Positions 5,517 to 50,519 of a stretch of 64,000 nt of DNA are shown one piece after another; positions within the stretch are counted from its first letter, which is position 1, and every line of letters begins with the position of its first letter. A program made the translations under genes and the position numbers. Origin of the DNA: Halobaculum marinum (GTDB lineage Archaea; Halobacteriota; Halobacteria; Halobacteriales; Haloferacaceae); NCBI RefSeq assembly GCF_029338555.1, contig NZ_CP119989.1, positions 2,046,001 to 2,110,000 of the forward strand, given 5' to 3'. Below the pieces are notes generated by a model. The model was given only the letters and a program-made list of their open reading frames with translations. It did not search any database and was not told the origin of the DNA.

Positions 5517-6161
5517 TTACTCGCGCCCGACGCCGACCACGTTGATCAGCGAGTAGACGGGGACGCCGGCGACCTCGTCGAGGCCCTGTTTGTCGACGAT
5601 GACTACGCAGGCGACGGGCTTGCCGCCCTCCGCCTTCACGGCTTCGACCGTCTCGGTGAGGGTGGTGCCGGAGGTGACGGTGTCGTCGACGATGTAGCAC
5701 TCGCGGCCCCGGATCGTCGCGAAGTTGCGCGAGAAGCCGCCGCCCACGTCGTCGATGTCGCCCTCGTCCCACTGGTGTTTCGCCGGCGCGTACGCCGCCA
5801 GATCCGTGTCGAGTTCGCGTGCGATCGTCGTCGCCAGCGGCGTGCCGGCCTTCTCGATACCGACGGTGAGGTCGACCTCCTCGCCCTCCTTGGCGAGCAA
5901 GTCGGCCATGGCCCGACCGACGTGGGTCAAGCGCGTGGAGTCGCGACCGACCGCCGACCAGTCGACGTGGATGTCCTGCGGCCCAGACGGCCCGGCATCG
6001 TCGGCGACGTCGTCGCTTCCAGCAGGCTGGGCGCCCGACCGCTCGACGAGCCACGACGCCGTCTCGCGGGAGACGTTCAACTCGTCGGCGATCTCGCCCT
6101 TCGAGAGTCCGCGCTCGGCCAACTCCGCCGCGTCGTCGATGAGGTCGTCGACGTTCTTCAT
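5517..6161 (-). CDS. gfcR: GfcR-type transcriptional regulator (HTH plus orotate phosphoribosyltransferase-like domain)
   Basis: 214 residues. An N-terminal helix-turn-helix (about 15-45, GEIADELNVSRETASWLVERS) is fused to a PyrE-like type I phosphoribosyltransferase domain with the PRPP loop CYIVDDTVTSGTTL near residue 155. This is the architecture of haloarchaeal GfcR, described in Haloferax volcanii as an activator of sugar-degradation genes; the PRT domain is thought to sense a metabolite rather than make OMP. Its ATG overlaps the gdh stop (ATGA), so it is translationally coupled to glucose dehydrogenase, the first enzyme of the pathway it controls. The true pyrE paralogue is not in the window. 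Confidence 0.92.
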   Translation of the reverse strand: MKNVDDLIDDAAELAERGLSKGEIADELNVSRETASWLVERSGAQPAGSDDVADDAGPSGPQDIHVDWSAVGRDSTRLTHVGRAMADLLAKEGEEVDLTVGIEKAGTPLATTIARELDTDLAAYAPAKHQWDEGDIDDVGGGFSRNFATIRGRECYIVDDTVTSGTTLTETVEAVKAEGGKPVACVVIVDKQGLDEVAGVPVYSLINVVGVGRE

Positions 6162-7219
6162 CGTGTGCCGAATTCCACCGCCGTCTTGATAGTGGTGTCG
6201 TCGTCGTCGAACGCTCGCTCGAACTCGTCGAGCCCGTACACGCCCGTCACCAGCGCGTCGGTGAACCACTCGGGGAGGGCCGCCACCGCCTCGACCGCGC
6301 GCTCGAAGTGACGGACGTTGGAGTTCACCGACCCCACCAACGCCTTGTTGTGGAGGACGAGTTCGCGGTGGAGCGCGCCACCGTCGACCTCGAACGTCCA
6401 GTCGTTCGGGACGCCGAGGAGCGCCGCCACGCCGTTGGGCGCCAGCGCCTCGATGGTCTGGAATGCGTGCTTCGCGTAGCCGGTCGCCTCGTACACGAAG
6501 TCCATCGCCTCGAACGCGCCCGGCACCTCGTCGACGGGCGTCTCCCGTGAGTCGACGTACGTGACTCCGAGGTCGTCGAGGATGTCGAGCGTCGGGTCCG
6601 GTCGGTCGCGCCGACCGAGACAGTACAGCCGTTCGAACGAGTTGTCGAGCATCGCGAGCGTGAGCAGGCCGAGGCTGCCGTTCCCGAGCACGAACGCCGA
6701 CTCGGGGTTCCACTCGAACGCCGACCGACTCGCGCGGGCGTGCTCGACTGCCTTCTCCGTGATCGACGCTGGCTCGACGAGGAAGCCCAACTCGGCCAAC
6801 TCCGGCGGACAGTTGACGAGGTGCTCGGCGGGACTGGTGAAGTACTCGGCCATGAAGCCGTGGGCGCCGTCGATGCCCCGCTCGTGGTACTGTCCCTCGG
6901 GCGCCATGTCCGGTTCGCCTCGCGCGAAGTACTCGTTCGAGCCGTTCGGTCGGCGACGGACGGTCGGCACGACCACGTCGCCCTCCGAGAGTCCGGTGCC
7001 GTTTGCGTCGACGACGACGCCGACGGCCTCGTGGCCCAACACGATGTGGTCTTCACCCTCGGGGTAGCCACCGTGATTCCCCGAGATGACCTCGTAGTCG
7101 GTGCCGTCGACGCCCACGCGGAGCGTCCGCACCAGCGCCTCGCCGTCGGCCGGGTCAGGCCGCGGCTTCTCGATCAGCGAGGGAGCCTCCTCCCCGCGAC
7201 GAACCGCGATAGCGTGCAT
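6158..7219 (-). CDS. gdh: glucose 1-dehydrogenase, NAD(P)-dependent zinc MDR family
   Basis: 353 residues. It oxidises beta-D-glucose to gluconolactone, the entry step of the semi-phosphorylative Entner-Doudoroff pathway. The residues known as Asp38, His63 and Glu64 in Haloferax mediterranei GlcDH fall at exactly 38, 63 and 64 (VDGTDYE, LGHEA) when translation starts at MHAIAVRRGEE, which fixes the start against an upstream in-frame ATG. The nucleotide-binding motif GNGSLGLL follows near residue 180. It is the first gene of an operon with gfcR (4-nt overlap). A TACT-N7-GAATA element lies 34-49 nt upstream of the start and is probably a TrmB-type control site. Confidence 0.95.
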   Translation of the reverse strand: MHAIAVRRGEEAPSLIEKPRPDPADGEALVRTLRVGVDGTDYEVISGNHGGYPEGEDHIVLGHEAVGVVVDANGTGLSEGDVVVPTVRRRPNGSNEYFARGEPDMAPEGQYHERGIDGAHGFMAEYFTSPAEHLVNCPPELAELGFLVEPASITEKAVEHARASRSAFEWNPESAFVLGNGSLGLLTLAMLDNSFERLYCLGRRDRPDPTLDILDDLGVTYVDSRETPVDEVPGAFEAMDFVYEATGYAKHAFQTIEALAPNGVAALLGVPNDWTFEVDGGALHRELVLHNKALVGSVNSNVRHFERAVEAVAALPEWFTDALVTGVYGLDEFERAFDDDDTTIKTAVEFGTR

Positions 7220-7252: not shown

Positions 7253-7268
7253 TATTCTATCGTGAGTA
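7253..7268 (-). promoter_or_regulatory. TrmB-type site (TACT-N7-GAATA) in the gdh promoter
   Basis: Read on the minus strand this is TACTCACGATAGAATA. It matches the TACT-N7/8-GAGTA sequence reported for Halobacterium TrmB with one mismatch in the right half. It lies directly upstream of or overlapping the AT-rich TATA region (GAATAAGCCTTTT) of the leaderless gdh transcript. A further AT patch (AAATAATTTA) sits just upstream. The ppsA promoter in this window has an exact match. Confidence 0.55.
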
Positions 7269-43997: not shown

Positions 43998-44519
43998 TTA
44001 GCGTTGCCGCTGCGCCGCCTCGAGCGCCTCCTCCGGCGACCGGTCGGGCGTCGCCGCGGGGTGGGACGCGAGGTACGCCTCCGCGTCTGCGATTGTCGTC
44101 TCGTTCTCCAGGCCGTACGACCGCGCCGTCTCGGCGGAGGCGCTGGCGTCGACCACCTCGGGCACGTCCGTCCGGTCGTCGGGGTCCTCGCTCACGTGGC
44201 GTCGGACGATGACGGTCGCGGTGACCGCCGCGAGGAGGACGCCGACGCCGACGCCGAACGTCCCCCACACGAGCCAGCCCGCCGCCGGGAGACCGACCGC
44301 CGCGACTGGGACCATCGCGAGGACGAGGCGCCGTCGGGACCGCGCGCGCCGTTCGTACGTCGTGACCACCGACGACCCGGCGCCCGCGGGGACGACGCGG
44401 TGCACCGGTCCGTGGTCGTCCTGGTACCGGAGCACGTCCCAGCGGTCGACCGCGGCGGCGGCGAGGTACGGCTCCTCGGGCCGCTCGTCGGCGGACTCGC
44501 TCGTTGCGGGGTCGCTCAT
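43998..44519 (-). CDS. predicted membrane protein with acidic tails, unknown
   Basis: 173 residues. Two adjacent membrane helices lie near 63-107 (LVLAMVPVAAVGLPAAGWLVW, then GTFGVGVGVLLAAVTATVIV). The N-terminal cytosolic part is acidic with YLAAAAVDRWDVLRYQDDHGPVHRVVPAG and an Arg-rich turn before the first helix; the C-terminus is helical, ending EALEAAQRQR. Starts MSDPATSESADER. No family recognised. Divergent from ppsA across a 204-nt region carrying several inverted repeats. Confidence 0.6.
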   Translation of the reverse strand: MSDPATSESADERPEEPYLAAAAVDRWDVLRYQDDHGPVHRVVPAGAGSSVVTTYERRARSRRRLVLAMVPVAAVGLPAAGWLVWGTFGVGVGVLLAAVTATVIVRRHVSEDPDDRTDVPEVVDASASAETARSYGLENETTIADAEAYLASHPAATPDRSPEEALEAAQRQR

Positions 44520-44639: not shown

Positions 44640-44657
44640 GTACTCGGAACCGAGTAC
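44640..44657. promoter_or_regulatory. perfect TrmB-type site upstream of ppsA
   Basis: GTACTCGGAACCGAGTAC is an 18-bp perfect palindrome and contains TACT-N7-GAGTA exactly, the sequence known for TrmB of Halobacterium. It is centred about 75 nt before the ppsA ATG and upstream of the expected TATA position, the arrangement reported for genes that TrmB activates. The TATA region itself is poor, fitting activator dependence. Confidence 0.7.
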
Positions 44658-44683
44658 AGATTGTTTCGCCGTTGCGGCGGTCG

Positions 44684-44698
44684 GAACCTTCTTGGTTC
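44684..44698. promoter_or_regulatory. core promoter-proximal dyad of ppsA
   Basis: GAACC-TTCTT-GGTTC, an inverted repeat centred about 33 nt before the ATG where the TATA box should be. The centre TTCTT replaces a good TATA sequence. It could bind a second regulator or be a chance weak promoter feature. Confidence 0.4.
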
Positions 44699-44723: not shown

Positions 44724-47051
44724 ATGGCTGTACTTTGGCTGGACGACGTTACCGCCGACGACCTGGAGACGGTCGGCGGGAAAGGGGCCTCGTTGGGGGA
44801 ACTAACCGGCGCCGGCCTGCCCGTGCCGCCGGGGTTCGTGGTCACCGCGGGGACCTACCGGACGTTCATCGAAGAGGCGGGTATCGACGACGAACTGTTC
44901 GCCGCGATGGACATCGACCCCGAGGACTCCGCGGCGCTTCGCGAGGCCGAACAGACCGCCGAGGACCTCATCCTGGGGACGGAACTCCCGGACTCCGTTC
45001 GCGACGAGATCCTCGAGGCGTACCGCTCGATGGGCGACGGCGAGGCGTTCGTCGCGGTCCGCTCGTCGGCGACCGCCGAAGACCTCCCCGACGCCTCCTT
45101 CGCCGGCCAGCAGGAGACGTTCCTCAACGTCCGCGAGGAGGCGCTGGTCCAGCGCGTGAAGGAGTGCTGGGCGTCGCTGTTCTCCCAGCGCGCAATCTAC
45201 TATCGCCAGCAGAAGGGGTTCCCCCACAGCGAGGTCGACATCGCGGTCGTCGTCCAGCAGATGGTCGACGCCGAGAAGTCCGGCGTGATGTTCACGTCGC
45301 ACCCCTCGACGGGCGAACCCGAGATCATCATCGAGGCCGCGTGGGGCCTCGGTGAGGCGGTCGTCTCCGGCTCCGTCTCCCCCGACAACTACGTCGTCGA
45401 CCGCGAGACCGCGGCGGTCGAGCAGGTGACCGTCGCCGACAAGAAGCTCCTGATGGAGAAAGACCTCGAGACGGGTGAGACGGTCGAACGCCCGGTCGAG
45501 GAGGAGAAGCGCGAGGCGCAGGTGCTCGGCGACGACGAGATTGCGCGCCTCGTCGAACTTGGCCGGCAGGTCGAGGACCACTACGGCACTCCGCAGGACG
45601 TCGAGTGGGCCGTGTACGAGGGTGAGGTGTACATGCTCCAGTCGCGCCCGATCACGACCATCTCCGACTCGGCGGCGTCGAGCGGCGGCCCGGCGAGCCA
45701 AGAGCGCGAGGCCGCGACCAACGGCGGCGTCGACACGACCCCGGGCACCGGCGGTGCCACCACCGACAGCGACGACGACGAGGTGCTGCTGCACGGCCTG
45801 GGCGCCTCCCCCGGCATCGTCTCCGGCACCGTCCGCGTCGTCACGAAACTCGACCACCTCGACCAGGTCGCCGAAGGCGACATCATCGTGACCGAGATGA
45901 CGATGCCCGACATGGTGCCCGCGATGAAGCGCGCGGTCGGCATCATCACCGACGAGGGCGGCATGACCAGTCACGCCGCCATCGTCTCCCGCGAGTTGGG
46001 CGTCCCCGCCGTCGTCGGCACCGGGTCGGCGACGAGCGCGCTGTCGGACGGCCAGACCGTCACCATCGACGGCGACAAAGGCACCATCCGCCAGGGGACG
46101 GTGTCGAAGACCGAGGAGGAGCACGAACCCGTCGAGGCGGTCCGCCCGGAGACGCCGGTCAAGCCCATGACCGCGACGGAGGTGAAGGTGAACGTCTCCA
46201 TCCCGGAGGCCGCCGAGCGCGCCGCCGCGACCGGCGCCGACGGCGTCGGCCTGCTGCGCATCGAGCACATGGTGCTGTCGCTGGGCGTCACGCCCGAGAA
46301 GTACATCGCCGACCACGGCGCCGACGCCTACGTCGACGAACTCGTCTCGGGCATCCGCGAGGTCGCCGAGGAGTTCTACCCGCGCCCCGTCCGCGCGCGC
46401 ACCCTCGACGCCCCGACCGACGAGTTCCGCGAGTTGGAGGGCGGCGACAGCGAACCCAACGAACACAACCCGATGCTCGGGTGGCGCGGCATCCGCCGGT
46501 CGCTCGACAAGCCGGACGTGTTCGAGCAGGAACTTCGGGCGTTCAAGCGCCTGTACGAGATGGGGTACGACAATGTCGAGTTGATGCTCCCGCTCGTGAA
46601 CGACGCCAGCGACGTAGAGACCGCCGTCGAGCACATGGAGGCCGTCGGCATCGACCCCGAGAAGCGCCGCTGGGGCGTGATGATCGAGACGCCCGCCAGC
46701 GCCCTCTCCATCGAGGAGTTGGCAGGCTGCGGCATCGACTTCGCCTCGTTCGGGACGAACGACCTCACGCAGTACACGCTCGCGGTCGACCGCAACAACG
46801 GCAACGTCGCCGACCGCTTCGACGAACTCCACCCCGCCGTCCTCTCGCTCATCGGCGACGTCATCGAGAAGTGCCGGGAGATGGGCGTCGACACCAGCAT
46901 CTGCGGGCAAGCCGGCTCCAAGCCCGCGATGGTCGACTTCCTCGTCAAGAAGGGCGTCACCAGCATCTCCGCGAACATCGACGCCGTCCGCGACGTGCAA
47001 CACGAGGTAAAGCGGACCGAACAGAAGCTGATCCTCGACGACATCCGGTAG
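44724..47051 (+). CDS. ppsA: phosphoenolpyruvate synthase
   Basis: 775 residues. Converts pyruvate, ATP and water to PEP, AMP and phosphate; the entry to gluconeogenesis. The N-terminal ATP-grasp domain has GGKGASLGELTGAGLPVP and VRSSATAEDLPDASFAGQQET; the swivelling phosphohistidine domain has GGMTSHAAIVSRELGVP near residue 420 with the catalytic His; the C-terminal TIM barrel has FGTNDLTQYTLAVDRNNG and the active-site GQAGSKP. The acidic linker (GGVDTTPGTGGATTDSDDD) precedes the phosphohistidine domain. The ATG giving MAVLWLDDV was chosen because upstream in-frame sequence holds the promoter dyads. An exact TrmB-type site lies upstream. Confidence 0.97.
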   Translation: MAVLWLDDVTADDLETVGGKGASLGELTGAGLPVPPGFVVTAGTYRTFIEEAGIDDELFAAMDIDPEDSAALREAEQTAEDLILGTELPDSVRDEILEAYRSMGDGEAFVAVRSSATAEDLPDASFAGQQETFLNVREEALVQRVKECWASLFSQRAIYYRQQKGFPHSEVDIAVVVQQMVDAEKSGVMFTSHPSTGEPEIIIEAAWGLGEAVVSGSVSPDNYVVDRETAAVEQVTVADKKLLMEKDLETGETVERPVEEEKREAQVLGDDEIARLVELGRQVEDHYGTPQDVEWAVYEGEVYMLQSRPITTISDSAASSGGPASQEREAATNGGVDTTPGTGGATTDSDDDEVLLHGLGASPGIVSGTVRVVTKLDHLDQVAEGDIIVTEMTMPDMVPAMKRAVGIITDEGGMTSHAAIVSRELGVPAVVGTGSATSALSDGQTVTIDGDKGTIRQGTVSKTEEEHEPVEAVRPETPVKPMTATEVKVNVSIPEAAERAAATGADGVGLLRIEHMVLSLGVTPEKYIADHGADAYVDELVSGIREVAEEFYPRPVRARTLDAPTDEFRELEGGDSEPNEHNPMLGWRGIRRSLDKPDVFEQELRAFKRLYEMGYDNVELMLPLVNDASDVETAVEHMEAVGIDPEKRRWGVMIETPASALSIEELAGCGIDFASFGTNDLTQYTLAVDRNNGNVADRFDELHPAVLSLIGDVIEKCREMGVDTSICGQAGSKPAMVDFLVKKGVTSISANIDAVRDVQHEVKRTEQKLILDDIR

Positions 47052-48942: not shown

Positions 48943-50049
48943 CTACGTGTGACTGTCGTCGAGCGGTTCGTGTCGGACGCGGTAGCCGGTCGCCGTCGAC
49001 GACACGGCGGTCGCTTCGTATACGCGGATGTCGCGCTCGGCTTTCGTGACGACGGGGAACTCGTAGTGGGTGGCGTCGTAGCCAGGCGACTCCGCCCGGT
49101 CGGCGACGAACGCGCGGTGATCACGGAGGCGCCGGCGACCCCGTTCGCGCGCGAGCGCCGGCAGGTCGGCGACTCGGTCGTCGAACCCCGCGGCGAACCC
49201 GGGGTCGCGTTCGACGCCGACGGAGTCGCGGCCGGAGGCCATCGCCGCCATCGTCGTCGTCCCGGTGCCCCAGAACGGGTCGAGCACGCGGTCGCCGTAC
49301 GTCGAGTACATCGCGATCAGGCGGTACGGCAACTCGAAGGGGAAAGCGGCGGAGCGCTCGCGCGGCGCGGCGGCGTCGAGCGCTTGGTCGGCGCCGCGGA
49401 GGTCGTCCCACGTGTCCGAGAACCAGCGGTTGCGCTCCTCCCAGAAGTACGCCGAGGCGTAGCGGGTGTCGTCGCCGGGGTCGAACGACCGCCCGTCGCC
49501 GTTGCGGAACACGAGGACGTGTTCGTGTTCGAGCGTGACGTACGCGTTCGGCGGGAGCGTGCCGCTCCCCATGAACTTCGTCGGCGAGTTCGTCGGCTTG
49601 CGCCACAACACGCCCGGCAGTCGGTCGAGGCCGTGGTCGCCGAGCGCGTCCGCCACTCGGGTAGCGTTGTCCCACAGGCGGAAGCGCCCGCCGACCGAAC
49701 GAGTCGCGTCGCCGACGTTCACGCACGCGACGCCGCCGGGCGCGAGCACACGGGCGACCTCCTCCCACGCCGGTGCGAGCGTCTCGTGCATGGCGTCGAA
49801 CGCCTGCTCGGCAGCGGCGTCGTCACCGGTTTCGGCGGTCGTGAGTGCCTCGCCGACCGCCGGGTCGAGGTCGGCGAACAGGTCGTCCCACTGCTCGACC
49901 ATCGGGTACGGCGGCGAGGTGACGACGAGGTCGACGCTGTCGTCGGGAATCGGGAGGGAACGAGCGTCGCCGACGCTCACCGTGTGTGCCGTCTCGAACG
50001 CGGCGCCGACACCGGGCGTCTCGTCGACTGGGTCGTCGTCGCCGCTCAT
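48943..50049 (-). CDS. beta-class DNA methyltransferase (N4-cytosine/N6-adenine type), orphan
   Basis: 368 residues. Catalytic motif IV TSPPYPM at 44-50 precedes motif I DPFWGTGTTTMAAMASG near 260, the beta-class order; an S-PPY motif suggests N4-cytosine, though N6-adenine is possible. Between them lies the target-recognition region (VLWRKPTNSPTKFMGSGTLPPN, ALEHEHVLVFRNG). No restriction endonuclease or specificity gene is nearby, so this is an orphan. Haloarchaea have a conserved orphan m4C methylase for CTAG, and CTAG is very rare in this window, which makes CTAG a likely target. Confidence 0.87.
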   Translation of the reverse strand: MSGDDDPVDETPGVGAAFETAHTVSVGDARSLPIPDDSVDLVVTSPPYPMVEQWDDLFADLDPAVGEALTTAETGDDAAAEQAFDAMHETLAPAWEEVARVLAPGGVACVNVGDATRSVGGRFRLWDNATRVADALGDHGLDRLPGVLWRKPTNSPTKFMGSGTLPPNAYVTLEHEHVLVFRNGDGRSFDPGDDTRYASAYFWEERNRWFSDTWDDLRGADQALDAAAPRERSAAFPFELPYRLIAMYSTYGDRVLDPFWGTGTTTMAAMASGRDSVGVERDPGFAAGFDDRVADLPALARERGRRRLRDHRAFVADRAESPGYDATHYEFPVVTKAERDIRVYEATAVSSTATGYRVRHEPLDDSHT

Positions 50050-50494: not shown

Positions 50495-50519
50495 GTTATA
50501 GCGGTTCGGATCCGAACCG
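50495..50519 (-). promoter_or_regulatory. palindromic operator and TATA box of the HxlR gene
   Basis: The 18-bp perfect palindrome CGGTTCGGATCCGAACCG (50502-50519) lies immediately upstream of TATAAC (50495-50500 on the minus strand). The TATA is centred 26 nt before the ATG, a leaderless layout. The dyad covers the BRE side of the promoter, an ideal place for a dimeric HxlR protein to block or recruit TFB. Confidence 0.72.

Follow-up and report, generated by a model that had tools for sequence, protein, structure and literature searches.

A TrmB-type palindrome upstream of ppsA in Halobaculum marinum, very probably an operator of the haloarchaeal sugar sensor TrmB

The binding motif of the haloarchaeal sugar sensor TrmB was reportedly first described by Schmid et al. 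in 2009, and one paper is said to deal with TbsP and TrmB in Haloferax volcanii. In Halobacterium salinarum, according to the portions of the study consulted, the motif is TACT-N(7-8)-GAGTA, expression of ppsA is TrmB-dependent and falls 3.6-fold on glucose, and TrmB is off the ppsA promoter within 2 minutes of glucose addition (PMC3794607). For Har. hispanica, the available parts of a second report list ppsA, gdh, a Gfo/Idh gene, fbp and gapII as bound by TrmB without glucose (Table 2), with no change in ppsA expression detected and this control point described as absent; direct repression of glycolytic enzymes is not reported in those parts (PMC10817205). The same source attributes to TrmBL1 of Pyrococcus furiosus and Tgr of Thermococcus kodakarensis a rule of location, by which sites upstream of TATA activate and sites downstream of it repress (PMC10817205). 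The literature leaves open whether ppsA control is a special feature of H. salinarum or a general one. TrmB control of ppsA being already published for H. salinarum, in the portions cited above, what is new here is the Halobaculum instance with its comparative backing; a search of titles and abstract beginnings of open-licence papers returned no description of a Halobaculum site or of a KDPG aldolase operator.

The analysis concerns a window of 64,000 nucleotides from the genome of Halobaculum marinum. We consider it very probable that a palindrome upstream of ppsA in this window is the operator through which TrmB controls the gene. The elements of the locus are as follows.

43998-44519, minus strand: divergent gene, no Pfam match, its ATG 121 nt from the operator
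44641-44656, plus strand: candidate TrmB operator TACTCGGAACCGAGTA, exact TACT-N7-GAGTA, with arms that reach 44640-44657
44682-44686, plus strand: BRE-like CGGAA, putative part of the ppsA core promoter, at about -42 from the ATG (script, and conservation in relatives)
44689-44695, plus strand: TATA-like TTCTTGG, putative part of the ppsA core promoter (conservation in relatives)
44724-47051, plus strand: ppsA, phosphoenolpyruvate synthase, 775 aa, predicted regulated gene (Pfam and NCBIfam)

The identity of the gene is supported by the Pfam domains PPDK_N, PEP-utilizers and PEP-utilizers_C and by scores of 952 bits with NF005057 (cut-off 598) and 936 bits with TIGR01418 (cut-off 739.75). The initial annotation had described an exact TrmB recognition palindrome at this promoter. 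The match to the published motif is indeed exact, starting at -83 relative to the ATG of ppsA; the 18-mer at 44640-44657, GTACTCGGAACCGAGTAC, is an imperfect palindrome, since its two 8-base arms flank a central AA. A perfect palindrome of 18 bases, CGGTTCGGATCCGAACCG, is found elsewhere in the window, at 50502-50519, upstream of a methyltransferase-like reading frame (48943-50049, minus strand).

Downstream of the palindrome, the best-conserved bases among related promoters are CGNAAnnTTCTTTA, which may be read as BRE plus TATA; of the 32 promoters to which the script could assign them, 31 have them starting between -41 and -44. The corresponding stretch in the window, CGGAAccTTCTTGG at 44682-44695, diverges at its end from this common form, its TTCTTGG being weak against the TTCTTTA of most relatives. 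The centre of the operator lies about 43 bp upstream of the TATA-like element, so that, with TATA assigned by conservation, the site has the geometry of an activator. Earlier remarks that the site lies upstream of the expected TATA position and that the core promoter is weak both hold, because 44682-44695 is downstream of the palindrome and its last bases differ from the conserved form. By analogy with H. salinarum, TrmB would bind this site in the absence of glucose and help to recruit the basal machinery to the weak ppsA promoter, PEP synthase would be raised for gluconeogenesis, and glucose would release TrmB, with a consequent fall in ppsA expression.

Exact matches to TACT-N7-GAGTA are rare. 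The palindrome is the only one on either strand of the window, where 0.03 are expected (mean of 100 dinucleotide shuffles, largest value 1). A genome-wide scan, proposed by the initial annotation, yields 11 places in 3,506,531 bases, seven of which have the symmetric form TACTC-N6-GAGTA; the reversed pattern, used as a control, gives one strand match for the former and none for the latter. Summed over the 11 Halobaculum genomes, the count of the symmetric form is 64 and that of the reversed control six. At least three of the 11 matches in the window genome lie outside any obvious carbon-metabolism promoter, namely those at the 3' end of a gene (L001), before coaD (L005) and inside the end of a gene (L011). 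When one mismatch was allowed, the genome had 99 places and the reversed control 28; this search was left out of target calling.

Nine fixed bases do occur occasionally in 3.5 Mb, as the 11 places attest, and a chance palindrome without function was considered for this reason; it was rejected, and is regarded as extremely improbable, on the grounds of the window expectation, the rarity in the genome and the conservation of position. Among ppsA promoters of named haloarchaea (the best 80 of 200 loci), 58 carry a site near this position, defined as at least eight of the ten fixed letters of TACTC-N6-GAGTA with a start between -92 and -73, a score reached in only 2 of 720 control windows of equal size farther upstream. 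Some groups have the site at around -80 to -86, others at around -76. Within Halobaculum, nine of the 11 genomes carry an exact site at -83 or -84 and a tenth carries one with a single mismatch; the remaining, incomplete genome (G009) has TrmB and has lost the site. In a further haloarchaeon (G077), which has three ppsA-like genes (L223, L226, L235), an upstream site scoring at least 8 is seen at two and at the third none.

The regulator itself is encoded in the genome. Six regions match PF11495, the TrmB sugar-binding family, and one of them (G000:C1:1943759-1944793, minus strand) scores 568 bits with the curated haloarchaeal equivalog model NF047392 (cut-off 500), compared with 154 bits for the single paralogue scanned. 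This protein resembles solved TrmB proteins (3qph, E 2e-19) and is found in all 11 Halobaculum genomes at 90% identity or more. Neither of the circumstances that the initial annotation had named as speaking against a TrmB site, a motif common in random intergenic regions or a genome with no TrmB orthologue, obtains here, because an equivalog above cut-off is encoded and the symmetric motif is rare, with seven copies against none for the reversed control. Compared with the H. salinarum TrmB (VNG1451C) regulon, as far as the portions consulted describe it, the motif, the target ppsA and the curated regulator family are all shared. The location logic attributed to TrmBL1 and Tgr is shared as well, although these homologues are distant: TrmBL1 has its own curated model, with which the Halobaculum TrmB scores 87 bits (cut-off 650). 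Two copies of a TrmB paralogue (L013 and L014, at G000:C2:20961-21683 and C2:233762-234484) have the same protein sequence and lie near the two ends of a 250-kb contig; their 3.7-kb surroundings differ, and the matter is one of either duplication or assembly.

The dependence of the site on the regulator was examined in 79 evenly drawn genomes of haloarchaea, 60 of which were searched for ppsA, giving 56 usable promoters. Thirteen of the 79 have no TrmB orthologue and retain paralogue-level matches only (best E 2e-9 to 8e-33). With a site defined by a score of at least 8 between -110 and -60 (shuffled expectation 1.6% per promoter), the ppsA site is present in 28 of 44 genomes with TrmB and in 0 of 12 without it (Fisher p 5.4e-5). 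Shared descent was controlled roughly, by counting genera: the site is found in 19 of 29 genus lineages with TrmB and in 0 of 8 without (p 0.0011). Sixteen of the 44 TrmB-positive genomes have no site of this score in the searched interval; TrmB is therefore necessary for the site and not sufficient. In a single genus (g15), the site is present in the four genomes that have TrmB and absent from the two that lack it, the core promoter being alike, and inspection by eye of seven TrmB-less genomes (G013, G022, G020, G027, G071, G053, G080) finds BRE and TATA kept and the operator gone. The absence of TrmB from several lineages is a natural experiment in which the site goes with the regulator. The mean motif count per genome is 3.9 in TrmB-positive and 2.1 in TrmB-negative genomes (p 0.003), or 3.5 and 2.1 when Halobaculum is left out (p 0.015), a modest separation that makes the genome-wide count only weakly informative as a test of TrmB dependence.

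These data also bear on whether another factor, either a TrmB paralogue or an unrelated regulator that recognises a similar palindrome, binds the site. Five further PF11495 matches in the genome provide candidates, and we know of no binding motif for these paralogues; the idea nevertheless seems quite unlikely, as the site tracks the orthologue and is missing from all 12 promoters of TrmB-less genomes even though paralogue-level matches remain there. The initial reading as a TrmB site at ppsA is thus supported by the rarity of the motif, the orthologue, the near-fixed distance, the co-occurrence with TrmB and the position in the promoter. There is a smaller, though not negligible, chance that TrmB binds and has little effect on ppsA under usual conditions, the site being kept for another growth phase or signal, or acting on the divergent gene 121 nt away. 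The Har. hispanica data, with a TrmB peak at ppsA and no change in its expression in the parts of the report available (PMC10817205), are in keeping with this. Against it, many genera retain both the site and its distance from BRE, and the examined genomes that lack TrmB also lack the site; this pattern speaks for a selected function at ppsA. In addition, the gene does respond 3.6-fold in the H. salinarum study, in the portions consulted (PMC3794607). We suggest from the conserved site that the ppsA control point, through TrmB, is general.

Other candidate sites form a coherent set in carbon metabolism. A TrmB-like palindrome overlaps the start codon of kdgA, which encodes KDPG aldolase (L002:1501-1516, corresponding to G000:C1:974605-974620), and with up to two mismatches it is found in all 11 Halobaculum genomes and also in one sister genus. 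It lies some 15 nt past a T-rich element, for instance TTTTATTC, in the position of a repressor. No start-codon site was seen at kdgA in 14 more distant genomes when the search was anchored by match start, an anchoring that hid the site of G036. Within the window, a weaker candidate accompanies the glucose dehydrogenase gene:

6158-7219, minus strand: glucose dehydrogenase (gdh), 353 aa, candidate TrmB-repressed gene (PF16912, 320 bits)
7253-7268, minus strand: weaker candidate TrmB site, TACTCACGATAGAATA, differing from TACTC-N6-GAGTA at one position, at about -49 from the gdh ATG

The gdh product matches the solved glucose dehydrogenase 2b5v (E 6.5e-174), and the site adjoins a T-rich stretch. 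In comparison with the H. salinarum system, which belongs to another genus, this genome has in addition glucose dehydrogenase and KDPG aldolase genes with these candidate sites. With the Har. hispanica TrmB (HAH_1548), in the portions of the report available, Halobaculum shares the targets ppsA, gdh and Gfo/Idh, here as predicted sites, and differs in having a site over the kdgA start codon and another before a fructose-bisphosphate aldolase-like (fba-like) gene.

Taken together, the sites fit a single switch, lying upstream of TATA at gluconeogenic genes and at or past TATA at genes for glucose breakdown, with the direction of regulation at each predicted from its position. On balance, we lean towards a broader proposal, in which ppsA activation is an old and widely kept function of haloarchaeal TrmB, lost with the regulator, and in which Halobaculum TrmB also directly shuts the Entner-Doudoroff branch through the kdgA start-codon operator and the site before gdh, so that the position of its sites would by itself drive gluconeogenesis one way and glucose breakdown the other. 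If true, this would go beyond the Har. hispanica picture given in the consulted parts of that report, in which no direct repression of glycolytic enzymes is reported and ppsA control is described as absent. The comparison makes of a single motif a testable regulon of fixed geometry, with candidate targets on both sides of the switch between glycolysis and gluconeogenesis.

Among the nine Halobaculum genomes with sites listed, eight have the exact motif before a DeoC/LacD-family aldolase gene (PF01791), eight before a Gfo/Idh oxidoreductase gene and four before a biotin carboxylase gene. The PF01791 gene is the fba-like one, its scores being below equivalog cut-offs, and in the window genome it is directly followed, as judged by eye, by a fructose-bisphosphatase-like reading frame. 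The trmB gene itself has an imperfect site at about -48 in all 11 Halobaculum genomes. The initial annotation had suggested a comparison with the promoters of gap, pyk, fba and ppsA, which bears out ppsA, with an exact site, and the fba-like gene; in the window genome, gapII offers just a degenerate version of the site (TACTCGGTCTGTAGTT, 8 of 10 letters), and before pyk there is a partial match (CACTCGGACCCGAGTT, likewise 8 of 10, at about -64). Two further exact sites, L004:1501-1516 and L043:1501-1516, precede minus-strand reading frames whose starts look similar by eye and which perhaps encode a small TrmB target protein; a hypothetical protein, HAH_0188, is strongly TrmB-dependent in Har. 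hispanica, according to the available parts of the report (PMC10817205).
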